Origin: Pedobacter sp. Bi126
Lineage (GTDB): Bacteria > Bacteroidota > Bacteroidia > Sphingobacteriales > Sphingobacteriaceae
DNA: 64,000 nt
Reading direction: 5' to 3'
Assembly: GCF_918698245.1 (NCBI RefSeq)
Contig: NZ_CAKKMS010000001.1
Span: 186,001-250,000 of the forward strand
The translations under genes and the position numbers were made by a program. Positions 6,738 to 30,547 of the stretch are shown here, one piece after another (the stretch's first letter is position 1; each line of letters begins with the position of its first letter). The notes beneath the pieces were generated by a model. It did no database searches. It was not told the DNA's origin and saw only the letters and a list, made by a program, of their open reading frames with translations.

Positions 6738-7571
6738 ATTAAATAGAATCTTTTTTTCGTAAAAACAGATATCTTTTTTTAAGCTACATGCTGTTATTCT
6801 ATTTTCTACCATATAAAAGCTATCCGGATAATCCATAAGTTGGATTGAGTGCTTCCTGCCACCCCCCTCACCTCTTTGCTATTTAAAGGAAGAGCGACAC
6901 GCTTTACACAACCGTAATATGTTTCTATGCCCTTGGCGTGGCCGGTATTCAGATTACCAGGATAAATTTAATGCCGGACCATTTTCATTTACCTACAATG
7001 CGTATTGTCATCATCATTATGCTTTTTACAATCAAATGCTCCGATTATTGGCAAGACAATCAAAGTTCTTTGGCGTGTTATCCTTTTACTTAAAAAGAAT
7101 AAAAAAAATTGATCTACCCAAATTTCACGTTGGTGTTCAACATAAATTAACTCAATAACAGGCGTAACCAAGCTGCTTCCGTAACAGCGCTCATTCTGCG
7201 TGCGTAGCCAAGTACTAAAAACTGCATCTAGCTGTTTAATGATCAACTCACCAAACACACAGGTTGTTAACTCAGCGAAAATATCTATATTTATACCGTC
7301 ATCGTCAGCAAATCCCTACAGTAGTTTATTTAAATTACCAAAATGATGGCAAAATCCACCAATATACACAGGTATTACAGTATGATGAAATGCAGTTGGC
7401 ATAATACAGTCAGCTCAGCTACCATTATCGTGTATTTAACCGGTATACCAGCGTCCCAATCATTCAAGATTTAACAGCAGAGACTTTATAGCAAAGATCA
7501 TTATCATTTTCTACCAGGAAAAGGGACAACCATAAACTTACCAACCACATCACTAAAGCAAATATAAAACC
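6738..7571. other. Long non-coding stretch between two divergent genes
   Basis: No convincing gene is visible here. Short open frames exist on both strands around 6919-7258, but they overlap each other and have unlike composition and no recognisable motif. The stretch ahead of 7572 is A/T-rich with scattered short inverted and direct words and should contain the promoter of the 470-aa gene. No -7 box is clear enough to call. Confidence 0.5.
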
Positions 7572-8984
7572 ATGGAAAACAAAAACAAAAAACCTCAACA
7601 GCCAATTATCATTCAGTCTCCTCAGATCATCTACGGTCCAATTACTATTGCTGATCCTATCGTTTTTTCAACCAATACCCTCATCATGTGCGACATGATT
7701 ATTTTTCGAGGGGATCCACTGCCCTTGCCAGAGTTCAGGTTTCAGCTAGACAGTGCTACACTGAGGCGATCTGAATATTATTCCAAAAGATATGGGCGGG
7801 AATTTTTGAATGTTCCGGACGATTATTTTTTATTGAAAGGAACCATTGACACCTCACGCTCTGGCGTTTACCCCGTCTCAGCACGCTTCAACCCTAGTTA
7901 TCCCGATAACGGCACCCGTGAAATCCTGGGAAACTTCATCTGCGATGCAGTAGTCATAGTAGCTGACTCGCAACAGGAGGCATTCAAGCTTTATAGTGAG
8001 GTGCTCAACATGCGCAGAACAGCAGACCAGGTAAAACAAACAGGCCGCGTAAAAATGCTCTCGCTAACCACGGCCACAATGCAGGGCGTACTGGGTTTTA
8101 GCGCCATGTATACCTCCATGCTCACTGATGCCTTTCAGCGCCTTATCAACCAAGGATTTGACTCAACCGCCAGCCGCCAAAACCTAGGCCTTCCCCAAGG
8201 GCATATTACCCGTCAGGAGCTCTTTGTTTGGATGCGCTCGCAGGATGAAAAGCGGGAGTTCCGTGAAAAGACGGTGGCGATTTTTCTTGCCATGCTTCCC
8301 TCGCTCGAAGAACAGTGTGACAAGCAAATCGCCAGTCCGGCGCATAAGCACTTCGTGGATTTGCTTCGTGAACACATTAGACAGAACAGGATCAGTGCCG
8401 CTCTTGATGCCATTGAGGATTACAACAATTGGATAAAGGAAGATCTGAAAACAAATCCGGGAAGGCTTCCCTTGTTGAACGATTATTTCAAGCTGGGCGG
8501 AACACGCATCCCGGACCGTTTTCTGGAAGAGGCACTTGCAGGCATTCCCGCCAGGCAGATCAAAGCGAACGTACTGGCAGCATCGGTAGTGGCCGCAGGG
8601 GTAGAACTAGGCGTGCTGATTAATGCGATCAGAATCTCCGCCTATCTAAAAAATCTGCTCCCCTTCTCTGCACCATTGAACGGCATCAACATCAGGGCAA
8701 TAGGCCTCATCGGTGGCCCAATTGCGATCGGACTCACCCTTTTTACCGCAATCTTTTCCGCCGCTTTGGAAAAAATCGTACATGATGGAAGCTATAGCAA
8801 TCAGCTATGGCGAGTATATGAACAGGCACAGCAACAAGTGAGGCTCAAAGAGATGATCAAAAAAGAGATTACAGGAAATATATTCATCGCCAATTTATTG
8901 CAGCTGATGGCAATTCCCAGCCCTGGCCTACTGAATATGCCCTCTACTAATCTACTCAGAGAAGTACATAGACCGATCCACTAA
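7572..8984 (+). CDS. Uncharacterised 470-aa protein with C-terminal hydrophobic segments
   Basis: The protein is not recognised. It starts at ATG 7572, after a purine-rich leader, with a Pro/Gln/Ile-rich segment (about 1-30, QQPIIIQSPQIIYGPITIAD) and no signal peptide. The central part (about 130-330) is helical with many charged residues. Two hydrophobic stretches follow (about 333-352, ANVLAASVVAAGVELGVLI, and about 374-398, IGLIGGPIAIGLTLFTAIFSAALEKI), which could form a helical hairpin in a membrane. It stands alone, with about 900 bases of empty DNA on its left and a convergent Crp-like gene on its right. A soluble-to-membrane protein such as a pore former would fit the layout, but that is only a guess. 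Confidence 0.65.
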   Translation: MENKNKKPQQPIIIQSPQIIYGPITIADPIVFSTNTLIMCDMIIFRGDPLPLPEFRFQLDSATLRRSEYYSKRYGREFLNVPDDYFLLKGTIDTSRSGVYPVSARFNPSYPDNGTREILGNFICDAVVIVADSQQEAFKLYSEVLNMRRTADQVKQTGRVKMLSLTTATMQGVLGFSAMYTSMLTDAFQRLINQGFDSTASRQNLGLPQGHITRQELFVWMRSQDEKREFREKTVAIFLAMLPSLEEQCDKQIASPAHKHFVDLLREHIRQNRISAALDAIEDYNNWIKEDLKTNPGRLPLLNDYFKLGGTRIPDRFLEEALAGIPARQIKANVLAASVVAAGVELGVLINAIRISAYLKNLLPFSAPLNGINIRAIGLIGGPIAIGLTLFTAIFSAALEKIVHDGSYSNQLWRVYEQAQQQVRLKEMIKKEITGNIFIANLLQLMAIPSPGLLNMPSTNLLREVHRPIH

Positions 8985-11997: not shown

Positions 11998-12750
11998 CTA
12001 GGGATGTGGTCCGATCCTCCTTTTCACCGCGCTTGCGGTCCTGTTATAATACCTTTTGGCCCTGATCCTGAATAAGTCATAAAGCAATACGGAAACAAGA
12101 ATTGCAACCGGGGCAAAAAAAGAAGGGAATCCAAAATGTTTGAAAAGATAAGCTCCTGTAATTGCCCCTGCCATGAAGAAAAAAATAATAGCAAGCCGAA
12201 GCCTGATCTTTAATTTTACAGTCTTACGCTCCTGCCCTTTATTACGCAGCGCCTGTGCCAGTTCTATCCCCAGGTCAGTAAAAGTACCCGTAAGGTGGGT
12301 AGTCCTTACGACAGAACCGGACACCATGGACACCAGTGAATTCTGCATTCCCATGGCAAAAAGAAGACTTCCGGCAAATAACTCCTTTGAGAAAAGTGTC
12401 CTATCGTAGCTTCCCCCGCAAAATGCTGAAAACAGCAGTACACCGATCTCGATGAGAATGGGAATTGAGCAAGCGTAACGTTGGTTAAGCCCCATAAAGG
12501 ACAAGATCAGGCCTGAAATAAATGCACCAGCAAGAAAAAGCATCATCCACAACGCGATAATGTGTGCTGTTCCCCAATCCTGAAAGGCTATCCTCTCAGC
12601 AAAAAGTGCAGCATGTCCTGTTACGTTTGTGGTAAGAATGTTAAATCCAAGATAGCCTTCAGCGTTGACAAAACCAGCAGTCATGCCTAACAAGCTTGCC
12701 AATCTGAGATTATGCTCATATGTTCTTTTTGGTCCTAAGTGTCTAAGCAT
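11998..12750 (-). CDS. YoaK/DUF1275 family membrane protein
   Basis: The 250-aa protein shows six or so hydrophobic helices and the family signature near its start: LASLLGMTAGFVNAEGYLGFNILTTNVTGH in residues about 17-46, where a conserved Gly/Asn-rich helix pair is typical of DUF1275. A second hallmark is the GMQNSLVSMVSGSVVRTTHLTG region (about 130-152). Members are inner-membrane proteins of unknown function, sometimes suggested to be transporters. The start is ATG 12750 and the C-terminus is Arg/Lys-rich (cytoplasmic). It has no obvious operon partner. Confidence 0.85.
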   Translation of the reverse strand: MLRHLGPKRTYEHNLRLASLLGMTAGFVNAEGYLGFNILTTNVTGHAALFAERIAFQDWGTAHIIALWMMLFLAGAFISGLILSFMGLNQRYACSIPILIEIGVLLFSAFCGGSYDRTLFSKELFAGSLLFAMGMQNSLVSMVSGSVVRTTHLTGTFTDLGIELAQALRNKGQERKTVKLKIRLRLAIIFFFMAGAITGAYLFKHFGFPSFFAPVAILVSVLLYDLFRIRAKRYYNRTASAVKRRIGPHP

Positions 12751-16829: not shown

Positions 16830-17099
16830 TTATCGCTTAGCCGATTGATCAAACCCGTCGTTAAAGAACTCAGCAAGGGTGATATCCAATGCGGAAAGCA
16901 CTTTGAGCAAAGATGAGAAATACAGATCTTCCCCATTTTCATAGCGCCAGAGCTGGGTACGGTTAAGGTCATGTTTAAAGGCAAATTTTTCATAGTTCCG
17001 TTCCCCTTTCGCTTCTCTAAGGGAACGAATCCGTGCACCAACCAATTTCAAAACTTCCTTTATATGCTCGCTCTCCTCTTCGTTTTTGGCTCTACTCAT
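16830..17099 (-). CDS. XRE-type helix-turn-helix regulator
   Basis: The 89-aa product from ATG 17099 (MSRAKNEEESEHIKEVLK) consists mainly of an HTH_3 domain: GARIRSLREAKGERNYEKFAFKHDLNRTQLWRYENGEDLYFSSL, followed by the last helix ALDITLAEFF. A longer frame to 17165 adds an implausible hydrophobic stretch and is rejected. It resembles DNA-binding components of small regulators and toxin-antitoxin-like pairs. It is divergently arranged with the gene at 17216, and a 8+8-bp inverted repeat lies in the shared promoter region. Confidence 0.8.
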   Translation of the reverse strand: MSRAKNEEESEHIKEVLKLVGARIRSLREAKGERNYEKFAFKHDLNRTQLWRYENGEDLYFSSLLKVLSALDITLAEFFNDGFDQSAKR

Positions 17100-17157
17100 A
17101 ACGTAAAGTAAACCAAAATGATGCGCGAGAGGTACTCTTAAAAAGAAACAGCACAAT

Positions 17158-17189
17158 AGATACATCTTATTAGAAACAAAAATGTATCT
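17158..17189. promoter_or_regulatory. Inverted repeat, candidate operator of the XRE/small-gene pair
   Basis: AGATACAT at 17158-17165 is inverted as ATGTATCT at 17182-17189 with 16 bases between. The right arm runs into a -7-like TATCTTTA at 17185-17192, about 24 bases before ATG 17216. An operator of this shape inside the promoter of both divergent genes would fit autoregulation by the XRE protein. Binding is not shown. Confidence 0.45.
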
Positions 17190-17215
17190 TTATTTCGCGT
17201 CATATAACTAAAAAT

Positions 17216-17437
17216 ATGGAAATTGAGGAATTATTACAGACCCCTATTGACAGACTTGGTTTTAGCACTGAATTCTGTAAAGCTTGTAGTTCAATGAATT
17301 TCAGCACATTAAACGACATCACATCTCTTTTGCCTGAACGACTGATAAATAAAGAAGGGTTTAGCTATAACTGGCTGGGGGAACTCAGCGCATACTTAGA
17401 TAAGAGAGGACTGTTGCATTTATTGCAACGGCCATAG
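17216..17437 (+). CDS. Small protein (73 aa) with helix-hairpin-helix-like region
   Basis: The product (MEIEELLQTPIDRLGFST... ending LLHLLQRP) reads like a compact helical domain, with repeats of Leu spaced as in the alpha-CTD/HhH fold (MNFSTLNDITSLLPERLINKEGFSYNWLGELSAYL). It is divergent from the XRE gene. Its last 53 bases overlap the 3' end of the opposing 390-aa gene. I do not recognise a family with certainty. An HhH-type RNA polymerase alpha-CTD-like small protein is the nearest structural guess. Confidence 0.55.
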   Translation: MEIEELLQTPIDRLGFSTEFCKACSSMNFSTLNDITSLLPERLINKEGFSYNWLGELSAYLDKRGLLHLLQRP

Positions 17438-18571: not shown

Positions 18572-18718
18572 CTATTGGTTGAAAATATGAGTGCTTGAAA
18601 TGATTGTTGTAGCCACCGTAGTAGTGTCAGAATCAGGCCTTTTATTCACTTCATTTAAAGATTTGTACTGTGCAACAATTTGCGTGTTTTTTTGTGGAAG
18701 TTTCTTTGATTTCATCAT
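18572..18718 (-). CDS. Small Ser/Thr-rich peptide (48 aa), candidate RiPP precursor
   Basis: An uninterrupted 48-codon frame begins at two consecutive ATG codons (18718, 18715) after an A-rich leader and ends TAG at 18572. The peptide has a basic N-terminal half (about residues 3-27, KSKKLPQKNTQIVAQYKSLN) and a C-terminal half (30-43) with nine Ser/Thr in 14 residues (SDTTTVATTIISST), then HIFNQ. It has no Cys, no GG cleavage site and no FNLD motif of classic class I lantibiotics. Its split charge pattern, tight coupling to the next gene and location a few kb from a LanB enzyme make it a plausible substrate for Ser/Thr dehydration. It could equally be a small regulator. Confidence 0.5.
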   Translation of the reverse strand: MMKSKKLPQKNTQIVAQYKSLNEVNKRPDSDTTTVATTIISSTHIFNQ

Positions 18719-18812
18719 AATTTTAATTTTTAATGTTAATTTAAGAGTCTATGCATTGGTTATATAATTTATTACAGATTCGAGCGGTTTTGTAGGTAAA
18801 ACAACATTTGTG

Positions 18813-19904
18813 ATGATAAATTTGAAAAGTTTAAAATTGAGTAAGCTAACTCGGAAGACAATTATAATCCATACTTCATTTTGGACGCTTTTTATCGCGT
18901 ATGAATTGTTCTTAGTATACTATCAAATTGGATCTCTGGAAAGGCCACTTATATATATTGTCTTTTATACAATTAACTTTGCATTTTTTTATTCCTGCCT
19001 TCATGTGTTAAATTATACTTTAGAAGGGTTAAAGAAAAATTACATTCGCGGCGTCGCTGCATATTTAGCCCTACTTATTCTTTATCTGATTATAAAAGGC
19101 TTTGCCGACTATTTACTGGGAAATCCCCAACCCGCCAATTATAATCCTTTCATATATATCAATCAGTTTCTAGCACGAAATATTGCGCGGGCCGGATACT
19201 TCACTTTGCTGGCTATATTTTATTGTTCGGCAAAGTATGTTGCTCATTATAAAAGACAGGCTTTGGAAGCCGAAAAGCGACAATTGATCATCGAAAAGAA
19301 TAACGCAGCGTTAGAAGCACAGCTTACCAAGTCTCGAAATGCATACCTACAACAACAGATCAATCCGCATATGCTCTTCAATGCGCTTAATTTCGTTTAC
19401 AACAGCGCACAGAAATATTCCGATGATGCCGCTAATTGCATTTGGCTCCTATCGGAGATTATGCGTTTCAGCCTGGAAGAAGCAGGTCCAGACGGAAAAA
19501 TCAAATTGGATAGAGAAGTTGAGCAAATTGAAAACCTCATCGCGATCAACCGCTATCGTTTTAAAGAACCGCTATATCTTAAGCTGGAAATGCATGGCGA
19601 TCTCAGTCGTTATAAAATAATCCCACTGATCCTGCTTACGCTGACAGAAAACCTGTTCAAACATGGGAACCTGACCGAACTTACCGCTCCGGCTGTACTG
19701 AAGTTAACGGCTGATGAAACCGGACAATTGACTTTTTACACCAGGAACTTAAAAAAATCAAAGAACGGACATCCCCGTCAGCGAAAAGCATTAGGTCTGC
19801 AGAACATCCGGCTCCGCATGGATTCGTTTTATAAAGACAACTATAAGCTGGAAATCAACGAACCTGGCGAATTTTACGAACTCACTTTAACCCTTAAATT
19901 ATGA
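18813..19904 (+). CDS. LytS-type sensor histidine kinase
   Basis: A 363-aa membrane histidine kinase of the LytS/HisKA_7TM-like group: four or so transmembrane helices in residues 1-150, a coiled-coil linker (about 150-185), then the His_kinase dimerisation motif LQQQINPHMLFNALNFV around residues 185-200 and a C-terminal ATP-binding domain (about 255-363) with the N-box-like TENLFKHGN. The start is ATG 18813; the upstream GTG at 18810 is also possible. It overlaps the response-regulator gene at 19901-19904 (ATGA), so the two are co-expressed. The 91-base gap to the divergent peptide gene probably holds both promoters. Confidence 0.9.
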   Translation: MINLKSLKLSKLTRKTIIIHTSFWTLFIAYELFLVYYQIGSLERPLIYIVFYTINFAFFYSCLHVLNYTLEGLKKNYIRGVAAYLALLILYLIIKGFADYLLGNPQPANYNPFIYINQFLARNIARAGYFTLLAIFYCSAKYVAHYKRQALEAEKRQLIIEKNNAALEAQLTKSRNAYLQQQINPHMLFNALNFVYNSAQKYSDDAANCIWLLSEIMRFSLEEAGPDGKIKLDREVEQIENLIAINRYRFKEPLYLKLEMHGDLSRYKIIPLILLTLTENLFKHGNLTELTAPAVLKLTADETGQLTFYTRNLKKSKNGHPRQRKALGLQNIRLRMDSFYKDNYKLEINEPGEFYELTLTLKL

Positions 19905-20638
19905 GCTTAACATGCTATATCATTGATGATGAATACCATTCAATTGAAGTACTCGATAAGTACGTCAATCAAACTCCTGGCTTGGAATTGGTTGGCAGCT
20001 CCACCAACCCGCTTTTAGCGCTGGAAGAATTATGCACTATCCAAACTCCCGATATTGTTCTGTTAGATGTCGATATGCCACAGCTCAATGGCCTTGATGT
20101 GGCAGACCTTATAGGTTCAGCGAGCAACATTATTTTCACAACCTCCTACCGCGAGTACGCACCGGAAGCGTTTGAAAAAGATGCAGTAGATTACCTGCTA
20201 AAGCCCATCAATTACGCCAGGTTTTTAAAGGCAGTTACCAGGGTGCGCTCAAATCTCACCAGTCAGACAACTCGAAGCACTGATAACCCCTTCTTTTTCG
20301 TCAAAAGCAACATTAAAGGAAAATTTAACCGGATCACCATCGCGGAGATCCTTTATATTGAAAACATAGGCAACTACATCATTATCCATATGAATGATGG
20401 AAAAGTAACCACTTACCTCACCTTAGCGGAAGTCCTTTCCAAGTTGCCTATTGAAACTTTTTCCAGAATACATCAGTCTTATATCGTCAACCATGCAACT
20501 ATTCATTCATTGGAATACGCTCAGGTAAGACTAAGCGGAGAAGTGAGTATTCCGATTGGAGGGACTTATCGTAGCGCCTTCCGGGAAAAAATCCAGCCAG
20601 CTTTAGTCATTAGCAAAAGAGACAAAAGTGATCACTAG
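19901..20638 (+). CDS. LytTR-family response regulator
   Basis: The 245-aa protein has a receiver domain (about 3-115) with the phosphorylatable Asp56 in LLDVDMPQLNG, the acidic pocket DDE near residue 9, conserved Thr/Ser and Lys (YLLKPI) residues, and a LytTR DNA-binding domain (about 130-235, with the YIENIGNYIIIHMND segment typical of the family). It pairs with the kinase at 18813-19904 through the shared ATGA. Its TAG stop overlaps that of the convergent LanB gene inside one CTAG. The target is unknown; the nearby peptide and LanB genes are candidates. Confidence 0.92.
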   Translation: MSLTCYIIDDEYHSIEVLDKYVNQTPGLELVGSSTNPLLALEELCTIQTPDIVLLDVDMPQLNGLDVADLIGSASNIIFTTSYREYAPEAFEKDAVDYLLKPINYARFLKAVTRVRSNLTSQTTRSTDNPFFFVKSNIKGKFNRITIAEILYIENIGNYIIIHMNDGKVTTYLTLAEVLSKLPIETFSRIHQSYIVNHATIHSLEYAQVRLSGEVSIPIGGTYRSAFREKIQPALVISKRDKSDH

Positions 20639-23600
20639 ACTGAAGTCCTTTCTCGGGCCAAACGCGAGCTGGTATACTTTTGCAGGCAATAGTAGACGAG
20701 CAACTCCTGTTGCCTTTGTCTAACGGAGAATGTCCGGTTCAGTTGCATATGCACCAGATCGGCCAAAAGCTCCATTTTTTTGTCTTTTGAATAGTTGATA
20801 GTAAGCCCTTTTAAAACAGACATCTGCTTTAAAAGGGGCAAAAGATGTTTTGATAATTCTTTACTTGCCAGCAAGTCCGCTATCGCTAATTTCTTCTCCC
20901 GGTACTTCTCATCCATTGCGACCTTAAGCGTTTTATCTGCACTGAACTCCGCCATAAACTGATCCTTTACCTTACCAAGGTAATCCAGAGCATCTACCAA
21001 AGAAGTAAAAAAGCAGCTGATCATGCGATAGGCAGTAAGTATAGCCAGTTCAAACTCGCTAAGTTGAAGGGAACTGTTCCCCCTTAAAGTCAATATGATC
21101 GCAGTAAGATTACTTCCCGCGCAAAAAAGCTCCTCAACATGCGAAATGAGAACGGGGCTATAGCGTTCGATTTCTCTACGGTAGGTATCTCCCTGGAAAT
21201 CCCGGATGAGTTTATCATGTCTGGATGATTCAATTTTTTTTCGCAAGGCGACGAGTATCGTGCCAAGATCACATTCTTCCGCCTGTATGCGCAGGCGCAG
21301 GTGATAACCTTTATCGCTGTAGCGGATGAAAAACCAGTTTTTGATCCGCTTTTTCTGCGCTTTAATAAACGGGAAAATCACCTTACTAAGGATTTCATCC
21401 GAAGCGCGTGGAATGCAGAAAATTTTAAGGTAAAGCCAATTACTCCCCATTAAAAAATCGCGTTGTTTTTCGCCGTAAGCAGTGGCGCTTTCCTTTTTTG
21501 AAGGTTTATAAATATTATTCCCGTGGGCAAGAAAAGCAATCATTTGCCCCGCAAGCGGCTTTTTACCGGCCAGAACGGATCGGTCTGGCCATAAATATTC
21601 CTGAATGGTTATCCTCTTAAGGCCGTGAATGCACTGCAGAAAAAACCTTGCCTCGGTGGTATTGGCCAGATCAAAAACCAACTGCTGGTCTGTTGCCCCT
21701 ATCGTGATGTGCCGGGGCAGGTGGTGCTTCTTGCGAAACCCATCCAGCGTTTTAAATGGATCAACATTATCTACCGCAGTTAAATGGTTTGTGTCTGATT
21801 CCTTAAAATTCCATTTCGCCAGACAGAGGATCACCCTTCCGTAGCAGAGCCGAGGATAAAAAGTCAGGCCCGGAAAAAAGTTTTCCAGACTAAATGAAAG
21901 TCCTGCCTGTACCCCTTGGAACTGCAGGTCACACAGCAGCCGGAAAACCGGCGAATGGTTATTTCGAAAGTTATAGGCTGTCGCCAAACGGGGAATTACT
22001 CTTTTGTTAAGCTTAGAAGACTCCAATATCAATTCACCGCCTTTAAGAGAAAGCATGACTTCGCTTGGAAGTATGAGCTTTTCGTCCGATTGTGTGGGAA
22101 ATACGTTCAAGGGTATCTCGTGTGAATAAATCGGCTTACGACGATTGATATTATCCACATGGCTATCAGACTGCTGGGCAATGTCAGCAAAAACAACTTC
22201 GGGATTTGAGGAAGTCTCCTTTGCGGCAAGCTCGCGGCAAAATTGGTGTACCAGATCACTAAAGCATGAAAACCTTCCAATCAGCGATGCGGCAGTAACT
22301 CCACCCGAGCTTTCGATGATCAGGTGCTCTCCAGTCGACCGGTACATGAGCGCCTGCGTCTGGGGCAAAGGCAATACTGCTTTTTTGTGATTTTCCAGTT
22401 TAATCAAATCATCTTCGCTGATCTGCAGGGGCGACCAGGGATCGCGTAGGGTGTCCCCTATCCAGAGTTTGAAGATAAACTGCTGGGAGGCATGCCATCC
22501 AAGCGTCCTGTTTTCTTCTTCCGGCTCAGGGAAAGGAATATTCTCCAGGATATCCTGATCAGGCATGGAGGGTTCCATCTCGCCATAATGCAGTCCTCCA
22601 TCGGGATCTAAGGCCGTCAGCAAAGGTACCCTTTCCTGATCAAAGCGGGTACGGAAATCACGGATAAAACGCGACAGATCAGCAGGCTGTTCAGCATTTG
22701 CCAATAACTGCAGCACATGGACAGCTTTGGAGAGTTCCACCTGTTCAGCAATATCTGGTCCCCCAGTTTTGTTCGGCCTTTCTAGGGCCGCATAAAATGG
22801 CTGGCCAATAGGTTTATTTTCCTTTGCTATTTCCCCGATATTCCCGGCCAAAGCCGACAGGGATGCGTCACCCGATAAAGGAATCATTGTGTAATTTTTC
22901 CAGAAGTCATTCCAGCCAGGTAAGCCAAAGGAGTTTTCCATGACCTCATTACTGATCACTTTGCCCTGAGTGCCATTGAAAACCGCACCGGCGTCAAGGA
23001 GAAACTGGATGTATTCTTCCGCTTCTGCAGCTGAGCACTCACCGTGCGCCATAATCCACCTCAAGAGGATATTTTTGGAAGCCTTTTTTGAAGATAAAAA
23101 TGAAAATAGCTGTATATTGAATTTTACGGCTGCAATCCCTTCCAGGGAAAAGCTAAATCGGCCCTTATCATCTAAAGATGATTTGGTGTAGCGGAAAACG
23201 TCATTAAACCGGTACAACGCAGGGTTGACCATCAATCCGTCTGACAGATCAGCCTCCGCCCTATTTTTCAATTTTCTCAAAAAATTCTGGTCAGGCAATA
23301 GATGAAGTACCGACTCGTCGCTTCCCGCAAGCCTGACCTGGCCACCGCTTCCCCATTGGAGTAAAGTGAAGGAGGAGAAGCTTCCAAAAGGGGTTGGTCT
23401 GAAGCACATCCGGTTATAATACTTATAAAGGGTATGTTTTTCCTTATCTGATAATTTATCGAAATCAAATTCCTTTTTTTCAAGTAAGGCATAAAACCCG
23501 GCGCTCGCCAAAAAAACTGCATTGCGAAAAGCCTGTTCCTGCAATACTTCCGGCACCCGCGAGAGATCATAGCCTGTAAAGCTATAGTACGGTGCCCGTA

Positions 23601-23649
23601 AAAACAACTGCGGTAAAAACCGGTACATCGTTGACTTATCTTCTTTCAT
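20635..23649 (-). CDS. LanB-type lantibiotic dehydratase (full length)
   Basis: The 1004-aa protein has an N-terminal glutamylation domain with the conserved RMCFRPTPFGSF motif (80-91) and a C-terminal elimination (SpaB_C/thiopeptide-type) domain from about 733. There, RYSDKGYHLRLR (776-787) and HMQLNR (967-972) are the family's conserved sites. Such enzymes use glutamyl-tRNA(Glu) to glutamylate Ser/Thr of a precursor peptide and then eliminate glutamate to give dehydroamino acids. Both domains lie on one chain, unlike the split LanB pairs of some Bacteroidetes. No LanC cyclase is seen within the window. Convergent with the LytTR gene; its start lies 89 bases from the divergent MauE start. 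Confidence 0.9.
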   Translation of the reverse strand: MKEDKSTMYRFLPQLFLRAPYYSFTGYDLSRVPEVLQEQAFRNAVFLASAGFYALLEKKEFDFDKLSDKEKHTLYKYYNRMCFRPTPFGSFSSFTLLQWGSGGQVRLAGSDESVLHLLPDQNFLRKLKNRAEADLSDGLMVNPALYRFNDVFRYTKSSLDDKGRFSFSLEGIAAVKFNIQLFSFLSSKKASKNILLRWIMAHGECSAAEAEEYIQFLLDAGAVFNGTQGKVISNEVMENSFGLPGWNDFWKNYTMIPLSGDASLSALAGNIGEIAKENKPIGQPFYAALERPNKTGGPDIAEQVELSKAVHVLQLLANAEQPADLSRFIRDFRTRFDQERVPLLTALDPDGGLHYGEMEPSMPDQDILENIPFPEPEEENRTLGWHASQQFIFKLWIGDTLRDPWSPLQISEDDLIKLENHKKAVLPLPQTQALMYRSTGEHLIIESSGGVTAASLIGRFSCFSDLVHQFCRELAAKETSSNPEVVFADIAQQSDSHVDNINRRKPIYSHEIPLNVFPTQSDEKLILPSEVMLSLKGGELILESSKLNKRVIPRLATAYNFRNNHSPVFRLLCDLQFQGVQAGLSFSLENFFPGLTFYPRLCYGRVILCLAKWNFKESDTNHLTAVDNVDPFKTLDGFRKKHHLPRHITIGATDQQLVFDLANTTEARFFLQCIHGLKRITIQEYLWPDRSVLAGKKPLAGQMIAFLAHGNNIYKPSKKESATAYGEKQRDFLMGSNWLYLKIFCIPRASDEILSKVIFPFIKAQKKRIKNWFFIRYSDKGYHLRLRIQAEECDLGTILVALRKKIESSRHDKLIRDFQGDTYRREIERYSPVLISHVEELFCAGSNLTAIILTLRGNSSLQLSEFELAILTAYRMISCFFTSLVDALDYLGKVKDQFMAEFSADKTLKVAMDEKYREKKLAIADLLASKELSKHLLPLLKQMSVLKGLTINYSKDKKMELLADLVHMQLNRTFSVRQRQQELLVYYCLQKYTSSRLARERTSV

Positions 23650-23738
23650 CTCTTCGTCGCTTTAAAGGGTATAATACCCATCTCATACTGTTTTGGCTTT
23701 TCTATTCGCCATTAATTTGTTTCTATAATTCTTTTACC

Positions 23739-24218
23739 ATGAAGGCAATTTTAAAATCAACCGTTCCACCACTGCTCGTACTGCTATTTGTATATGCTGC
23801 TTTGAGCAAGTTCTTTACTTTTTCAGACTTTGACCAGCAGCTTCACAACCAGTCTTTTCCCAGCTGGCTTGCTGATTTCCTATTGTATTTTTTGATCCCT
23901 ACAGAAATCATCACTGCGCTGCTGCTATGTTTCAAGCGGACCATCATATCTGGTCTGTTATTTTCAGCTGTACTGCTGCTGGCCTTCACATCCTACATTG
24001 CCATGGTCATGCTCCATTTCTGGGACAGGGTTCCCTGTTCATGTGGAGGCATTCTGAACCAAATGGGCTGGACCGCACATCTTATATTCAACAGTATTTT
24101 TCTGATCCTAAACCTTCTCGCTTTATATCTCTATACTTTCGAACCGAAGGAATTAAATAAGGTCAACAACATGACCAACAGCCAAACAGGGCAAGCTGAA
24201 AACCTGCGAACAGAGTAA
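23739..24218 (+). CDS. MauE-like DoxX-type membrane protein
   Basis: The 159-aa product from ATG 23739 (MKAILKSTVPPLLVLL) has four hydrophobic helices and the MauE signature Cys-Ser-Cys-Gly-Gly (VPCSCGGILNQM, about residues 105-116), which in MauE is linked to electron transfer or disulfide formation in the periplasm. A longer frame to 23592 starts inside the LanB gene region and lacks a plausible start. It runs divergently from LanB and is followed by the DUF6520-like gene. It could supply or receive electrons for thiol chemistry of a secreted product. Confidence 0.8.
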   Translation: MKAILKSTVPPLLVLLFVYAALSKFFTFSDFDQQLHNQSFPSWLADFLLYFLIPTEIITALLLCFKRTIISGLLFSAVLLLAFTSYIAMVMLHFWDRVPCSCGGILNQMGWTAHLIFNSIFLILNLLALYLYTFEPKELNKVNNMTNSQTGQAENLRTE

Positions 24219-24280
24219 GCATCATTTATTCACTAAAGTTTTTCTGAATGTTTTTTGATGTAATAAAGCATTCGTTTCCT

Positions 24281-24529
24281 ATGAAAAGGATCAAATTAAA
24301 CTTAGCTGCTATCGCATTCCTACTTGGAACAGGCATAGCAGTAGCATCTACTGCTCAAAAAGCCAATGTTAAATGGGGTTTGAATGGAAGCACGTATGTA
24401 GAGGTAACCGGCAACTACAATTGTATAGAGTCGGACCTAACCTGTACCCGCACTTATCCTCAAGGCCAAAATCCCAACATCAATCCAAGCGGCTACCTTG
24501 ACGAAGAGGTTGGTACTTTTGCTCAGTAG
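24281..24529 (+). CDS. Small secreted DUF6520-like protein
   Basis: From ATG 24281 (MKRIKLNLAAIAFLLGTGIAVAST) the product is an 82-aa peptide with a clear signal peptide, cleaved near AVAST-AQK, and a mature part rich in Asn, Gly and Pro with two Cys (NYNCIESDLTCTR). The N-terminal pattern and length fit the DUF6520 family common in Bacteroidetes, function unknown. An earlier in-frame ATG at 24248 adds an unlikely leader. It ends shortly before the rho-independent terminator at 24552. Confidence 0.65.
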   Translation: MKRIKLNLAAIAFLLGTGIAVASTAQKANVKWGLNGSTYVEVTGNYNCIESDLTCTRTYPQGQNPNINPSGYLDEEVGTFAQ

Positions 24530-24583: not shown

Positions 24584-25954
24584 TTACCGTTCATTCTGCG
24601 CCATACCGCTGGCAGAAATTTCTTCGGCCGGAATGGGCAGCACATAACGTTTATCACCAGCGATTAATGTGAATACCTGCCCTGAAACCGTCCGGACTAT
24701 AGTTTTAGCAAAGCGTGGATCTTTATTGAGCCGCTTGAGATCTCCCCAACGAAGTCCACGAAAGACAAGCTCCTTACGCCTTTCCAGAAGAACAATCTTT
24801 AGGGCACTCTCCGCATCGGCAGCAGAGAGGGGCTGGTAGGTGCCTTTGGTCCAGCGCGTGACCAGCAGGGTATTCAACTCTTTCATGGCCTCGGCAAAAC
24901 TGCCCATCCTCGCCAGTGATTCGGCGCGGATGAGGTACATTTCATCCACACACAATCCGCCAAACAGCTGCAGGCGGAATCCGGTATACCGTCCTTTGAA
25001 ATAAAAGGGAGCGCTGCCTGCAAAAAATATGCTTTTTCTCAGGTCCTTGTCTGCATAGAGCTGGTATAACTCATCAGCAACCGTGGTCCTGGTGGAGGAG
25101 GTAAATCCATGGGCTACAAGCATATCATAAAATATTACCTCAGGATTGTCTACTGTTGGAGAAGAAGGGAATGGATTGGTTGCACTAAGGCTGATGGTAT
25201 TATAATCCAGCAAGGAACGGTTCAACGCAAGCGATGCTGCCGCATATTTACCGGCCTGTTCATAATTTTCCATGTTCAGGTACACCCGCGCCAGTAGTGC
25301 ATCTGCTGCAGCTTTGGAAGGACGATTTTTAAACCGGGTCGTTTGTGGCAATAACTTTTCTGCCTCCAGCAGATCACCAATCAACTGGTCATATACCTGC
25401 TGCACGCTAGCCCTTCCAACCTTTGCATTCACATCTGCAGTGAGGCGCAGGGGTATCCCCGGATCTACGCCGGCGGTGTTCTTGTCATAGGTTTTGGAAA
25501 ACAGCTGCACCAGGTTATAAAAGGCAAATGCCCGGTGAAAAAGCGCACTGCCTTTTGTGGTGTTCCAGTCGGTCTTTGATCCTCCAGCCCCTTCAGGCTC
25601 CTGAAGTCCGTCCAGTATGATATTGGCATAAAAGATCTGCTGATAAGGACGGTTCCAGTCTGTACAAGATTGGTTCTGATAAATATCTGCGGACCATAAA
25701 TAGCTGTTTTTCTGGATCACAGAGGTAAACCCAGCCACGTCGGCATCTGTAGCGTAAAAGTCATCAGCTGAAATTTCCTGCAGCGCGGGACTGATGTTGA
25801 ATACGGTCAGGTTGTCCATCAAGGCATTAAAATCATCCACGGTAGTAGGAATGAGCAGCGCCTTATCTGGCTTTTTGTCTAGGAATTCCTTTTGGCAGGA
25901 AGTAAAAAGCAGGCCGAAGAGCAATAGGGCCATGAGCAAAAATAATGGTTTCAT
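24584..25954 (-). CDS. SusD/RagB-family outer-membrane lipoprotein
   Basis: The 456-aa product from ATG 25954 has a lipoprotein signal (LLFGLLFTSCQKEFLDK, lipobox Cys at about residue 21) and the alpha-helical TPR-like SusD fold, with the C-terminal ELVFRGLRWGDLKRL motif of the family. SusD proteins sit on the cell surface on top of the SusC transporter and bind its substrate. It follows SusC by 24 bases. This pair lacks neighbouring glycoside hydrolases, so its substrate may be a peptide or another oligomer rather than a glycan. Confidence 0.88.
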   Translation of the reverse strand: MKPLFLLMALLLFGLLFTSCQKEFLDKKPDKALLIPTTVDDFNALMDNLTVFNISPALQEISADDFYATDADVAGFTSVIQKNSYLWSADIYQNQSCTDWNRPYQQIFYANIILDGLQEPEGAGGSKTDWNTTKGSALFHRAFAFYNLVQLFSKTYDKNTAGVDPGIPLRLTADVNAKVGRASVQQVYDQLIGDLLEAEKLLPQTTRFKNRPSKAAADALLARVYLNMENYEQAGKYAAASLALNRSLLDYNTISLSATNPFPSSPTVDNPEVIFYDMLVAHGFTSSTRTTVADELYQLYADKDLRKSIFFAGSAPFYFKGRYTGFRLQLFGGLCVDEMYLIRAESLARMGSFAEAMKELNTLLVTRWTKGTYQPLSAADAESALKIVLLERRKELVFRGLRWGDLKRLNKDPRFAKTIVRTVSGQVFTLIAGDKRYVLPIPAEEISASGMAQNER

Positions 25955-25978
25955 AATATTCAGTTTCGTGATTAACAT

Positions 25979-28900
25979 TTAAAAATCAGCTTTAATGCCA
26001 AGTGCGACCGTGCGGGCCGGCGGATAGTCAAAGACGGGATAATCCGGGTCAAAACCGGTTTTGGTCGACTTCCAGATGATCCCGATGTTATTGGCATAGA
26101 GATAGACCTGCAGTTTACTAAGTGCAAGATGCTGCAGTACGTTTTTACCAAATTCGTAAGAAAGGCTGATATCCTGCAAGCGGATATTATCAGCCTTTTG
26201 GACAGTTGCAGTTGACAAATTATAAAAACTGTCCCTTGCGGCGTTGATGCCGGCAGGCATTGATGGGACGGTCGTGATCAGTTCATCCCCAGGCTTCTGC
26301 CATCGCTCACTGTACCTCCCCTGGAAGTAACCCTGTCCGGAAAGGATGCTGGAGTACAAAATGCCCGGTTGCCTAAAATAGTAACCCAGGCGATAGCTGA
26401 TGTTTGCAGAAAGGGAAAACTGCCTATAAGTGAATGTATTACGCAGGGCGCCATAGTTAACCGGACGGGCAGGGCCACTGTAAATCAGGTTATCCGCAGT
26501 CGCCGAAGACAATAGCTGCCCATAATCTTTGCTTATTTTGCCACCGATGTAACCCTGAGGGTCGCCGTTCTGGGCGTCCAGACCTGCAAAGGCATAACTG
26601 TATACCGCGTAAAAGGGTTTTCCCTGTAAAGGATAAACCTCGCTGTCGGAAAACTGTGCATATCTACTTGCCGGTTGCCGCAGGGCGTAATCTATAACCT
26701 GATCCTTGACATGGCTAAAAAAGAAACTGGTCTGCCAACCCAATTCACCGACCAAATTCCGGCTGTTTACACTAAGGTCGATTCCTGTTCCACGGGTATT
26801 TGCCGTATTGCCCCGGAAGGTGGTGATGCCCGATGAGGGTGCAAAGGCGATATCCCCGATCAGATCCATGCCCCGTTTTAAGTAAGGCTCTACCGTGCCG
26901 CTGATCCGGTTATTCTTAGTTGCAAAATCAATCCCCATATTGATCAGGCGTATACGCTCCCACCTCAGCTCGGGGTTCGGCGGGTTGATGACCTGCGCGT
27001 AGGTGGTATTGATAACATTGCCTGTCAGGTACAGCGCAGTTGTAAAGGCAGAAAGGCTTTTATTCACGTTTCCATTGTAGCCGTAGGTCAGCCTCATTTT
27101 TAAATAGGGAAGCCAATCCAGGTTATAAAAAGGCTCTTTATCAATATTCCAGGCGAGGCCCGCCGAATAAAGGGGCACCCCCTGTTGATTGGTTTTCACC
27201 CCGAACAGGTTACTCCGGTCGAGCCTCGCACTGGCAGACAGGGTATAGCGGTCAAGGTAAGTATATGCCGCATTCGAATAATAAGAAATATTCCGGTCGG
27301 TCAGGTCGGTCATGCTGTTATAAAAAGGAATGGCTGTCGAAGAACCAGCGATGGCAAACTGTGGAAACAGTGTAACGTAATCTACCCCTAGAGCGATCGC
27401 ATGGCTGTCATCATAACCATATGATCGGTTGCTGTTGCCCACCGTGTGGAAATCACGGAGTTCATACCCGGCAAATGCCGTGAGGTTATGTTTATCATTC
27501 CATTGACGGTTAAAATTCAACTGCCCTCTAATGCTCTGACTGGTAGCAGTGAGCTCGTCCATATCTAGAATCGCGCCACGCGGAATAGCGTAAGAGAGTT
27601 TCCCATTAGCATCAACTGCCGAAAAATTATTGATCAGGTTCCGGGTAAAATAGGTTTTTTCGCTCCGAAGGTTCCGGCCGTTAGCGATGCTCTGGCCATA
27701 CTGATACAATAGTGACAGTGAAAGATAAGGCTTGATTTTATAACTGGCGCCAAAATTCAGCCGGTAATCTATCAGTTTTCGGGTTTTATCCGCCAAAAAG
27801 ATTTCTTCCAAGGGTTTATAGCTCCAGTCGAGCAGTCCGCGCTGCTGCGCAGCCTGAATAAATCCCTGACGGTAGTCGTGGGTTATGGCGATGGGATTTC
27901 CCACAGCATCGGCAAGCCTGGCATAGGGATATAGCGAAGGGCCGTTACCTGTGTTGAGTCCAATCAGGCTTGTCCCGGGATTGTTGGCTGTGGTATTGCT
28001 CTGGGTATAATAAAATCCAGTCGTTATCTCCAGTTTTTTATTCAGTAAGTTGATGGACTGTCCACCATTGAAAGTATAGCGATCAAAACTGTTTCCCACC
28101 AGGTTATCCTGGTTATGGTCATACCCTCCCGACAGGTTAAAGCGCTGGATTTCGCTGCCACCGCTGAAGTTCAGGGCATATTGCTGGTTAACACTTTTAC
28201 GGTAAAAATAGTGCTCAAAATCACTCCGCACATCGTTTGAAGCCAAAGCACTAATCTGTGCATCAGCCTGACCGGCAGTGATTTTACCGTCCCTGCGGGC
28301 AATCAGCAGTTCCACTACCGGCGTAATCGCCGGATTATTGAAACCCGTTTCGGCATTTTGGTAAAAGCCCTTATCAAAAAGCGCTTTTTCGATGCCAATA
28401 AAATCCGCAGCAGACATCCTGGACTGATAAAAAACATCCGGTTTATCACCGATCGTGGCGTTGGCATTGAAACCTATTTTCAGGGGTTGGCTATAACGTC
28501 CTTTTTTAGTTGTGATGACAATCACGCCGTTTCCGGCACGGGAACCCCAGATGGAAGCCGCCGCAGCATCCTTGAGCACCGAGATGCTCTCTACGTCATT
28601 GGGGTTGATGTTATTGATATCACCATCATATGGAAAGTTATCCAGTACGATCAATGGACTGGAATTCCCATATATGGTATTCTGCCCGCGAACACTGATC
28701 AGGCCTGCCCCTGCCGACCTGCCTTTGTTGAAAAGCAGGCCCGGAGTAACATCTTCCAACCGGTCTAGCACGCCTGTACTCACCCTCCGGCTGAGCAGTT
28801 TATTATCGACCTGAACAAAAGAACCAGTAGCCCTTTCGGCCGGAAGGGTCTGATAACCTGTGGAAACGACAACCTCCTTTAACTGTGCTTCTATGGCAGT

Positions 28901-29200
28901 CAGTATAATGACGAGCGGTTGATCACCAGCCGATACACTAAGGCTGGCTTGCTCGTAGCCAAGGTAGGACACTTGCAGGGTCACTTTCGAAAGGCCCGTT
29001 TTTAAAGTAAAATCGCCCCCCTCATCAGTCAGCACCATGACCCCTGACTCTTTAAGTTTAACAGTGGCCCCAAACAAGGGAATGCGTCCGCCCGCCGCCA
29101 CAACCTTACCCTTTATTTCGTTTGTTGGCTGCTGGGCATTGAGCGGTAGACTGTAAAGCAGAAACAGCATGGCGAGGTATAGTATAATAATTTTCTTCAT
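25979..29200 (-). CDS. SusC-like TonB-dependent outer-membrane transporter
   Basis: This 1073-aa protein has a signal peptide ending NAQQ, a CarboxypepD_reg-like N-terminal domain (about 28-115), a plug domain with the SusC signature VLDNFPYDGDINNINPNDVESISVLKDAAAASIWGSRAGNGV in residues about 190-230, and a C-terminal beta-barrel ending in aromatic residues (IKADF). It should move a large substrate into the periplasm with energy from TonB. It is translated after the TlpA-like gene and before SusD. The substrate is unknown; the linkage to a thioredoxin-like protein is unusual for glycan loci. Confidence 0.9.
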   Translation of the reverse strand: MKKIIILYLAMLFLLYSLPLNAQQPTNEIKGKVVAAGGRIPLFGATVKLKESGVMVLTDEGGDFTLKTGLSKVTLQVSYLGYEQASLSVSAGDQPLVIILTAIEAQLKEVVVSTGYQTLPAERATGSFVQVDNKLLSRRVSTGVLDRLEDVTPGLLFNKGRSAGAGLISVRGQNTIYGNSSPLIVLDNFPYDGDINNINPNDVESISVLKDAAAASIWGSRAGNGVIVITTKKGRYSQPLKIGFNANATIGDKPDVFYQSRMSAADFIGIEKALFDKGFYQNAETGFNNPAITPVVELLIARRDGKITAGQADAQISALASNDVRSDFEHYFYRKSVNQQYALNFSGGSEIQRFNLSGGYDHNQDNLVGNSFDRYTFNGGQSINLLNKKLEITTGFYYTQSNTTANNPGTSLIGLNTGNGPSLYPYARLADAVGNPIAITHDYRQGFIQAAQQRGLLDWSYKPLEEIFLADKTRKLIDYRLNFGASYKIKPYLSLSLLYQYGQSIANGRNLRSEKTYFTRNLINNFSAVDANGKLSYAIPRGAILDMDELTATSQSIRGQLNFNRQWNDKHNLTAFAGYELRDFHTVGNSNRSYGYDDSHAIALGVDYVTLFPQFAIAGSSTAIPFYNSMTDLTDRNISYYSNAAYTYLDRYTLSASARLDRSNLFGVKTNQQGVPLYSAGLAWNIDKEPFYNLDWLPYLKMRLTYGYNGNVNKSLSAFTTALYLTGNVINTTYAQVINPPNPELRWERIRLINMGIDFATKNNRISGTVEPYLKRGMDLIGDIAFAPSSGITTFRGNTANTRGTGIDLSVNSRNLVGELGWQTSFFFSHVKDQVIDYALRQPASRYAQFSDSEVYPLQGKPFYAVYSYAFAGLDAQNGDPQGYIGGKISKDYGQLLSSATADNLIYSGPARPVNYGALRNTFTYRQFSLSANISYRLGYYFRQPGILYSSILSGQGYFQGRYSERWQKPGDELITTVPSMPAGINAARDSFYNLSTATVQKADNIRLQDISLSYEFGKNVLQHLALSKLQVYLYANNIGIIWKSTKTGFDPDYPVFDYPPARTVALGIKADF

Positions 29201-29215
29201 AACTAAAATTTGTGT

Positions 29216-30547
29216 TTAGCGTTTACGGATAATGAGCATTTCGATCTCTGCAGGTTTTTCGACAAAGCGCAGGTCATAGCGGGCGAGGGCTTTATTGACC
29301 TGCTCGATACTGCTCATATTTGCAGTGAGCTCAAGGTCCACCATTCCTGTATATCCGGTCTGGTCAATCACCGGAAGTGGGCTCGCCTGAAAAGGAATCT
29401 TCAACCGGTCTATGAAAACAGCGAGAAAGCAACTGGTCATTTTGCACCCAAAGCCATCAAGGTTAACCGTGGGCTGCCCGCCAGAGGTGCGGAGTTTATC
29501 TTTCGAAGAGGTACGCACCAGAGCCAGTACCTTTACTTTCCGTTTCTCCAGCCCCACCAGGTAATCGGGGAAAAATCCCTTTAACTGATCCTGCATCAGT
29601 GCATATGTCCGATCACTGGATCGTTGATTGACCATAAGCTCATAACAATATGCCCTGCCCTGCTTCAGCCAGTCCATAAAATTTGCGCCGGTTAATTTTC
29701 CAGGCTCAAATGCTTTCGAAAGTCCATCTTCCAGCACCGTTTCTTTTTTCCCTTTTTTATAGGCTATTCGGAACAATTCAGGAATGGTCAGGTTACGTCC
29801 GGTAATGCGTCTCACTGGTCCGCCTGCCTCTACCTCTACGTCTTTATAGATCCCACGGCCGATATTGGTGATATAACCTGAAAGCTGAGATCGAAAAATA
29901 CCGTTATCGAAATCCGCTCCCTCGAAAAATAAAGACTTACTGGTATCATATAGCATTTTCTCGTCCTTTTTGACCTTCAGCTCCAGCGACCCTACTGCTA
30001 ATAAGGAATTGATATTTTCAGCAGACACAGCCTCACGGTCGGTAATGGCCTTTACTACACCATCACCACCTATCCATACATAATGTGGGAGCGTTTGATG
30101 GGGAAAAAGCCGGACCAGTGTCGTATCTGCTGTAACCATCGGCAGCGAGAAAGCGTTACCAGTTTGCTGCTGCAGCTTTTTATAAAAGGCATCTACCTCT
30201 TTAAAGGACTGATAAGCTACCGGGAGGAACTGGACACGCCCTTTAAACTCTTCTTGCAAAGCCTCCATTTTAGGGATCATGGCGATACAGGGCGAGCACC
30301 AGGTTGCCCAGAAATCCAGGATCACCAGTTTGCCTTTAAAAGCAGAAAGCGGCAAGACTGCCAAATTCTGACCCGCCCCATTAAGACCGGAAACATTCCT
30401 TATCAGTACATCCGGCACCTGCTGACCGATAGAAATCCCCCGATGATCCGCAGACGCAGCCACACTGGTAACAGATGTATTTTTATCCTGGGCATGCACC
30501 CAAAAAACTGGGCATAGCAGTAGCAGGAAGCATAATTTAAGCTTCAT
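29216..30547 (-). CDS. TlpA-like thioredoxin fused to a TIGR03435-like domain
   Basis: The 443-aa product has a signal peptide (ends VHAQ), an AhpC/TSA-type thioredoxin domain (about 35-180) with the redox motif WCSPC (83-87), and a C-terminal region (about 190-443) reminiscent of the TIGR03435/DUF3738 domain, ending with PLPVIDQTGYTGMVDLELTANM and FVEKPAEIEMLIIRKR. It would act in the periplasm as a disulfide reductase or thiol-exchange protein. It is the first gene of the SusC/SusD operon, 15 bases before SusC. The fusion suggests the redox activity works on whatever the SusC/SusD pair imports. Confidence 0.8.
   Translation of the reverse strand: MKLKLCFLLLLCPVFWVHAQDKNTSVTSVAASADHRGISIGQQVPDVLIRNVSGLNGAGQNLAVLPLSAFKGKLVILDFWATWCSPCIAMIPKMEALQEEFKGRVQFLPVAYQSFKEVDAFYKKLQQQTGNAFSLPMVTADTTLVRLFPHQTLPHYVWIGGDGVVKAITDREAVSAENINSLLAVGSLELKVKKDEKMLYDTSKSLFFEGADFDNGIFRSQLSGYITNIGRGIYKDVEVEAGGPVRRITGRNLTIPELFRIAYKKGKKETVLEDGLSKAFEPGKLTGANFMDWLKQGRAYCYELMVNQRSSDRTYALMQDQLKGFFPDYLVGLEKRKVKVLALVRTSSKDKLRTSGGQPTVNLDGFGCKMTSCFLAVFIDRLKIPFQASPLPVIDQTGYTGMVDLELTANMSSIEQVNKALARYDLRFVEKPAEIEMLIIRKR

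Follow-up and report, generated by a model that had tools for sequence, protein, structure and literature searches.

What does a full-length LanB dehydratase make when the candidate precursor beside it contains no Cys and the genome has no match to LanC? This question is raised by a locus of Pedobacter sp. Bi126 (Sphingobacteriaceae; RefSeq assembly GCF_918698245.1), located in a stretch of 64,000 nucleotides of contig NZ_CAKKMS010000001.1 (positions 186,001 to 250,000, forward strand), hereafter the window. The unit runs in the order LanB, LytTR response regulator, LytS-type kinase, 48-aa Cys-free peptide and a 390-aa protein (P390). LanB is convergent with the kinase/regulator pair, and its gene shares a 4-bp overlap with that of the regulator. 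The P390 gene lies directly behind the peptide gene and is counted as part of the unit. Both this and the convergent orientation of LanB go beyond the original prediction for this DNA. The unit is a conserved, apparently undescribed bacterial system that, to judge from its sequence, probably makes dehydrated peptides without sulfur rings. We give a probability of about 0.72 to the reading that the product is a LanB-dehydrated, non-lanthionine ribosomally synthesized and post-translationally modified peptide (RiPP) controlled by a LytTR two-component system of its own. Computation showed directly that the unit is conserved, that the peptide is under selection, that the LanB active sites are intact, that LanC is absent and that LytTR-type repeats occur across the family.

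The original prediction had proposed the small peptide as a Cys-free precursor with a basic, leader-like half and a Ser/Thr-rich tail. Translation of the open reading frame (ORF) bore out this description, with 48 aa, zero Cys, nine Ser/Thr within residues 30-43 and a Lys-rich first half. The same asymmetry was found across 82 distinct peptides of the window's type (type 1) and a sister type (type 2): Ser/Thr made up 34% of the C-terminal and 16% of the N-terminal half, and Lys/Arg 5% and 25%, respectively. Type-1 peptides have a leader around K-L-P-x-K-K, followed by a D-P/T-T run, a Thr-rich stretch and T-T-T-H, and the core sequences differ between species. Since several homologues start at the second ATG (18715), this is the likelier start. 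In five Pedobacter copies, the mean proportions of synonymous (pS) and nonsynonymous (pN) differences were 0.55 and 0.22 in the annotated frame, compared with 0.28/0.29 and 0.24/0.30 in the other frames. The peptide is thus under purifying selection, seen only in the annotated frame. A chance reading frame might be suspected in an ORF this short, the window peptide having no Pfam or NCBIfam match, but the frame-specific selection and the fixed position in dozens of loci make this explanation vanishingly improbable. Across the peptides, no NCBIfam family was matched by more than 2 of 26 type-1 or 1 of 13 type-2 members. The matches that did occur, ranked by E-value without curated cut-offs, were read as chance hits on short Thr- or Lys-rich strings: a TyrR-type helix-turn-helix model (E 0.00017, two members), Shiga toxin A-chain models (E 0.011-0.079, one member) and IteS (E 0.042, one member).

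To place the unit among its relatives, we surveyed 301 genomes of the same family, own genome included. P390 relatives (E <= 0.001) were present in 107 genomes and LanB relatives (E <= 1e-20) in 149, while a single-sequence search with the peptide (E <= 0.01) matched nine, one of them (G014) within a 542-aa frame and probably by chance. We retrieved and annotated 40 stretches. The 79 LanB loci compared below were chosen by hand (best P390/LanB scores, then selected other LanBs) and are not a random sample, and the 30 type-1 and 13 type-2 peptides used to train the peptide profiles also enter the counts. The window-type order was found in 30 of the 79 loci, window included, with 1.95-2.4 kb from LanB to P390 and a profile-matching peptide in every one. 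Two further loci (L079 and L099) have this order with inserted genes and are outside the 30; in L079 (9580-12451), two IS110-family transposase genes lie between LanB and the regulator. A P390-profile scan of named genomes gave 14 loci in 13 genomes (Pedobacter, Mucilaginibacter, Hufsiella and two metagenome-assembled genomes with less exact names). Pedobacter suwonensis DSM 18130 and P. soli DSM 18609 both carry the locus. The peptide ORF stood immediately before P390 in all 14, and six of these peptides (L114, L120, L121, L122, L123, L127) were absent from the training set.

The co-occurrence check that had been suggested for the peptide and LanB also came out in favor of the pairing. A profile-matching peptide (E <= 0.01) divergent from the kinase was found in 64 of the 71 LanB loci whose stretch includes a kinase of this type, and a C-half Cys occurs in 8 of the 82 distinct peptides. 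No profile match at this threshold was obtained in L112, L113, L158, L161, L162, L166 and L174, of which L113 and L174, scored as misses, contain Thr-rich candidate peptides by eye. In L161 and L162, where the kinase/regulator pair is present, a different Ser/Thr-rich candidate precursor with an FLKLEKE..SADH leader lies upstream of LanB. A class-wide search matched PF14028 in 39 of 345 genomes and returned 30 loci with about 1.5 kb on each side. Seven were from the same family, all with a kinase or regulator match (a fragment in L200). Within the same short flanks, the 23 loci from other families showed a kinase together with a regulator only in G483 and a weak regulator match in G321.

The window LanB scored above the cut-off for both of its domains (PF04738, 230.8 bits; PF14028, 183.4 bits), and a PF06580 kinase and a LytTR regulator lie between it and the peptide, as the original prediction had described. 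LanBs shorter than 800 aa (L104, L159) were excluded from the tree and the residue count, leaving 77 of 79, and residues were placed by alignment to NisB. R80, R84, R785, R787, E826, R829 and H967 were identical in 77/77 LanBs, R459 in 76 and T86 in 70. We take these positions to be catalytic from their role in NisB. The identity of the catalytic Arg, Glu and His in all 77 suggests that the enzymes are functional. The own genome has two LanBs in total and, over 6.29 Mb at 99.98% completeness, no match to LanC (PF05147), so that the expected lack of LanC held. Among the ten neighbouring proteins scanned (a genome-wide search was not made), there was no YcaO/cyclodehydratase or pyridine synthase, and the TbtD_PbtD model gave the window LanB 13.3 bits against a cut-off of 325.

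The separation from LanC extended to most of the relatives. In 67 of the 79 LanB loci, the kinase/regulator pair lies within ~2.5 kb and a LanC match is absent within 10 kb, and many Sphingobacteriaceae LanBs are therefore probably not lanthipeptide synthetases. Seven loci have LanC without the pair within ~2.5 kb, among them L158, where the pair is 4.1-4.9 kb from LanB. L166 combines the pair with weak partial LanC matches and is the only one of the eight LanC-near loci with the pair within 2.5 kb, and four loci have neither by these limits. Ordinary Cys-rich Gly-Gly precursors were found at LanC loci L160 and L167; a simple filter for Cys-rich precursors found none at the remaining LanC loci. 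In the LanB tree, the six LanC-type rows that were retained all fell into one supported group of nine, together with L166 and the kinase-linked L161 and L162. A LanC-like gene elsewhere in the genome, as in some relatives carrying the locus, could in principle make the product a normal class I lanthipeptide. With no LanC match in the own genome and no C-half Cys in 74 of the 82 distinct peptides, this is hardly conceivable, and it is ruled out for the window peptide itself, given its lack of Cys.

These observations support the precursor assignment: the peptide is conserved together with LanB, is under purifying selection and has a Ser/Thr-rich, Cys-poor tail. Glutamylation and elimination of Ser/Thr using Glu-tRNA is established LanB chemistry. 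The peptide would be a RiPP precursor processed by the nearby full-length LanB, which would glutamylate Ser/Thr of the C-terminal core via Glu-tRNA and then eliminate, giving dehydrobutyrine and dehydroalanine. That LanB acts on this peptide is very probable. With a core without Cys and a genome without LanC, no lanthionine could form. Dehydration of the core and the absence of lanthionine from the product are thus what we expect from these sequences; the product may be a linear dehydrated peptide or one cross-linked by another nucleophile, for which the conserved His behind the Thr run would be the obvious candidate.

A second arrangement shows that the combination of LanB with such peptides is not confined to loci with P390. 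In this sister type, LanB is followed by the kinase, one to six peptides and the regulator, and P390 was not found there. The own genome's second LanB locus (contig C4, L110) has a Cys-free type-2 peptide (12200-12343, plus strand), with PorP/SprF and OmpA-type genes upstream. The arrangement was seen in 20 of 20 further loci, which were picked by their LanB, and the peptides were Cys-free in 19 of them; in the exception, L149, four of five have one Cys. Type-2 leaders center on K-L-x-K-K-T-V-F-V-Y-K-N and most cores on T-x-P-T-G-D-x-S-H-T-V-M-T-S. Tandem arrays of 5-6 similar precursor genes lie between kinase and regulator in L146, L138 and L149, with up to six in L146. A profile comparison between type-1 and type-2 peptides gave 57% probability, which is only suggestive.

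We then asked whether the regulator could act on the peptide promoter. In the accessible parts of papers on LytTR sites, these consist of two 9-11-nt repeats with 11-13-nt spacers (PMC4847170, PMC2766830, PMC6193735). Each spacing from 10 to 40 bp was scored upstream of the nearest peptide per locus, in loci with E < 0.01, and compared with 200 dinucleotide shuffles. The best of the 31 spacings was 21 bp, with a mean of 6.47/9 matches in 49 non-redundant loci (shuffles at 21 bp: mean 5.54, standard deviation 0.12, maximum 5.92). Without type-2 Pedobacter loci, the 44 remaining loci still gave 6.36 (shuffles 5.53, maximum 5.89). The repeat letters vary between clades while the spacing is constant, and the 21-bp repeat is clear at type-2 loci. 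Upstream of LanB (69 loci), 21 bp gave 5.71/9 (shuffles 5.51, standard deviation 0.10, maximum 5.77). This indicates little if any signal there, since 21 bp was only the fourth-best spacing and close to the shuffles. The divergent LytS/LytTR pair would therefore, across the family, control the peptide promoter and thereby also the P390 gene that follows immediately; we regard it as likely that the regulator drives the peptide family-wide, and less so for the window copy. Sensing of the product by the kinase is possible, at somewhat less than even odds. Upstream of the window peptide, a CGAATCTGTAATAAA block is conserved in most close relatives despite the missing clear repeat. A palindrome GGGTA-N-TATACCC stands just before the LanB start codon in 15 of the 79 loci, window included (two with A first), and the window's version, GGGTATTATACCC, has a single match in the 6.29-Mb genome.

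Several observations weigh against a LanB-dehydrated product under LytTR control. The window's own peptide promoter lacks a clear 21-bp repeat (best 5/10). The best peptide has a core-half Cys in 6 of 64 loci, LanB is split into two ORFs in L104, and we recognised neither a dedicated exporter nor a protease next to the genes scanned. L208, which comes from a different family of Bacteroidia, has a LanC-like gene (23% identity) beside a Cys-free peptide, kinase, regulator and LanB (7022-8591); a LanC without a Cys substrate, as here, might add an external thiol. Some genomes with no LanB match at E <= 1e-20, for example G115, G140, G227 and G230, contain distant P390 relatives (~20-25% identity). 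Finally, the kinase/regulator-peptide-P390 set is kept without an adjacent intact LanB in three genomes, G186, G106 (contig C1) and M. endophyticus; the three loci are L108, L127 and L211. In M. endophyticus, from the named scan, LanB is reduced to a 107-aa remnant. The peptide thus appears more tightly tied to the regulator than to LanB.

The last point bears on a concern raised with the original prediction, that the peptide might occur mainly with the P390 gene in genomes lacking LanB. This is not so for close P390 matches (E <= 1e-20), which have LanB within 10 kb in 33 of 36 cases, but distant P390 relatives do occur in genomes that have no LanB match. The three exceptions among the close matches are a contig-edge copy in G212, the copy on contig C1 of G106, whose genome has a LanB elsewhere, and G186, where LanB is 41 kb away. 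The three sets without an adjacent intact LanB, together with repeats that link the peptide to the regulator and not to LanB, would also suit a peptide that stays unmodified and serves the two-component system as a signal or small regulator, with the adjoining LanB modifying something else. We consider this very unlikely, because LanB is still present elsewhere in G106 and G186, because the leader/core asymmetry and Ser/Thr-rich tail suit a LanB substrate, and because the sister type, found without P390, keeps LanB, kinase, regulator and Ser/Thr-rich peptide together throughout the LanB-picked loci.

A link to conjugative elements suggested what a dehydrated product might do. An RteC homologue lies within ~100 bp behind P390 in 12 loci (L090, L092, L093, L095, L098, L100, L101, L102, L104, L105, L212, L213), with TraE/TraF/TraG-type genes further on in the same direction, at 1.4 to 6.7 kb (Pfam identities from L093; TraG unmatched in L100 and L213, no separate TraE match in L212). 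The part of the window searched (11001-34000) had no rteC or tra match. In CTnDOT, as presented in the available text of PMC1976400, the RteA/RteB two-component system activates rteC, which controls excision and transfer genes. The 12 loci share with this cascade a two-component system directly ahead of an rteC homologue and transfer genes; they differ in that LytS/LytTR replaces RteA/RteB, LanB and the peptide are added and P390 lies between, and the window copy is not beside such genes. By analogy, the LytS/LytTR pair and the LanB peptide would occupy the RteA/RteB place. A tentative picture, which we hold at well below even odds, is that the products are LanB-dehydrated, ring-free pheromones of Sphingobacteriaceae, sensed by the kinase, with LytTR driving peptide-P390 and, on conjugative elements, rteC-tra, and so timing transfer.

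Characterised LanB products are often antimicrobial, and the divergence of the cores between species and the tandem sister-type precursors would fit a competition peptide for which P390 provides immunity or acts as a regulatory partner. We regard this as unlikely, given that no exporter, protease or recognisable immunity gene was seen in the cluster, that P390 was not found in the sister type, and that the 15 same-genus sister loci have largely the same ORFs on their flanks, which looks more like a fixed chromosomal locus than an arms race. The layout of an autoinducing-peptide circuit makes a signalling role somewhat likelier than a purely antimicrobial one, and with the rteC-tra link the signal is favored among signal, antimicrobial and metal-binding roles.

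The metal-binding role is attached to a cross-link through the conserved His (histidinobutyrine-like), with the neighbouring SusC, SusD, thioredoxin-like and MauE proteins taking up or acting on the product. A Ser/Thr-His pair is present in the C-terminal half of 33 of 42 type-1 peptides, and of the 51 stretches searched, 21 (the window among them) have both a MauE and a SusC match. Noursin, a product of a class III LanKC synthetase, sets a precedent: in the available text of PMC10206099 it is a dehydrated, copper-binding RiPP with a cross-link formed by addition of His to dehydrobutyrine. It differs in having one Cys and a labionin ring. This explanation is quite unlikely for our locus, as there is no cyclase candidate, the pair is absent from nine type-1 peptides, and MauE is unmatched in loci before rteC/tra genes, in L086-L089 and in the sister type.

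Compared with known systems, the dehydrated, ring-free product would combine familiar parts. Nisin is under two-component regulation, as is proposed for this locus. With class I lanthipeptides (nisin NisA/B/C; pinensins and other Bacteroidota members), the unit shares a full-length two-domain LanB and a short leader-core precursor, but here the core has no Cys, the genome no LanC, the regulator is of LytTR type and the cluster has no exporter or protease that we could recognise; the same-family LanC loci L160 and L167 likewise stand apart through their Cys-rich precursors. Thiopeptides and goadsporin use LanB chemistry without LanC, with split LanBs and azole-forming and cyclising enzymes, whereas here LanB is a single chain and no other modifying enzyme was recognised beside it. 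Agr and plantaricin are LytTR peptide circuits, as is sil; these have Gram-positive hosts, and to our knowledge none is LanB-modified. The sil circuit shares with the family a LytTR regulator and direct repeats with a 21-bp period before its promoters, according to the accessible part of PMC2766830. Cyanotins, as far as the available text of PMC7268733 goes, are a precursor family of lanthipeptide enzymes with some Cys-free cores, but they are LanM-linked and often encoded at a distance from the enzyme gene. Both LanB chemistry and LytTR circuits are known, and it is their union on Cys-free, LanC-free peptides that is apparently undescribed; in the open-access literature searched, we recognised no paper describing this arrangement. 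Surveys that start from LanC, as the accessible parts of PMC7268733 and PMC3091789 indicate, would miss such loci by design.

The set of LanB, peptide, kinase and regulator is simple, and it lends itself to studying the function of a LanB product that has no lanthionine rings and a possible signalling role of dehydrated peptides in Gram-negative bacteria. Where the unit precedes rteC/tra genes, the idea that a peptide controls gene transfer in Bacteroidota becomes directly testable.

Table 1 Coordinates of the unit and its neighbours in the window.
Feature	Position	Strand	Description
Precursor peptide gene	18572..18718	-	48 aa (47 aa from second ATG, 18715); Lys-rich leader half, putative core SDTTTVATTIISSTHIFNQ, no Cys
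P390	17385..18557	-	390 aa, predicted all-helical, family without assignment; 14 bp behind peptide gene; weak profile similarity to RteC C-terminus
LytS/YpdA-type sensor kinase	18813..19904	+	PF06580; divergent from peptide gene; N-terminal region with several hydrophobic stretches, judged by eye
Response regulator	19901..20638	+	LytTR DNA-binding domain
Full-length LanB dehydratase	20635..23649	-	1004 aa; has both the glutamylation and the elimination domain; catalytic residues kept
Element CGAATCTGTAATAAA	18768..18782	-	~50-64 bp upstream of peptide start; kept in most close Pedobacter copies
Imperfect palindrome GGGTATTATACCC	23667..23679	-	18-30 bp upstream of LanB
MauE-family membrane protein	23739..24218	+	Divergent from LanB
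DUF6520 small protein	24248..24529	+	Own genome's only match found
SusD-like lipoprotein	24584..25978	-	Frequent neighbour; role in system unproven
SusC/RagA TonB-dependent receptor	25979..29200	-	Frequent neighbour; role in system unproven
AhpC/TSA-thioredoxin-like protein	29216..30547	-	Frequent neighbour; role in system unproven

P390 gave no RteC (PF09357) match in Pfam scans, and a profile-profile comparison reached a weak 44% probability over 41 columns in the C-terminal part of RteC. Its AlphaFold2 model is helical (mean predicted local distance difference test 78.9, predicted template-modelling score 0.65). Foldseek against the PDB returned nothing at E <= 0.001 for this model, and a second look with VIA gave a top Z of 7.2 to unrelated helical proteins, which is uninformative. 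Beside P390 in the window (16830-17437), we observed by eye a helix-turn-helix-like ORF on the minus strand and a small plus-strand ORF resembling an RNA polymerase alpha C-terminal domain. Helix-turn-helix-like ORFs, likewise identified by eye, are also found near P390 paralogues in L085, L108 and L127.

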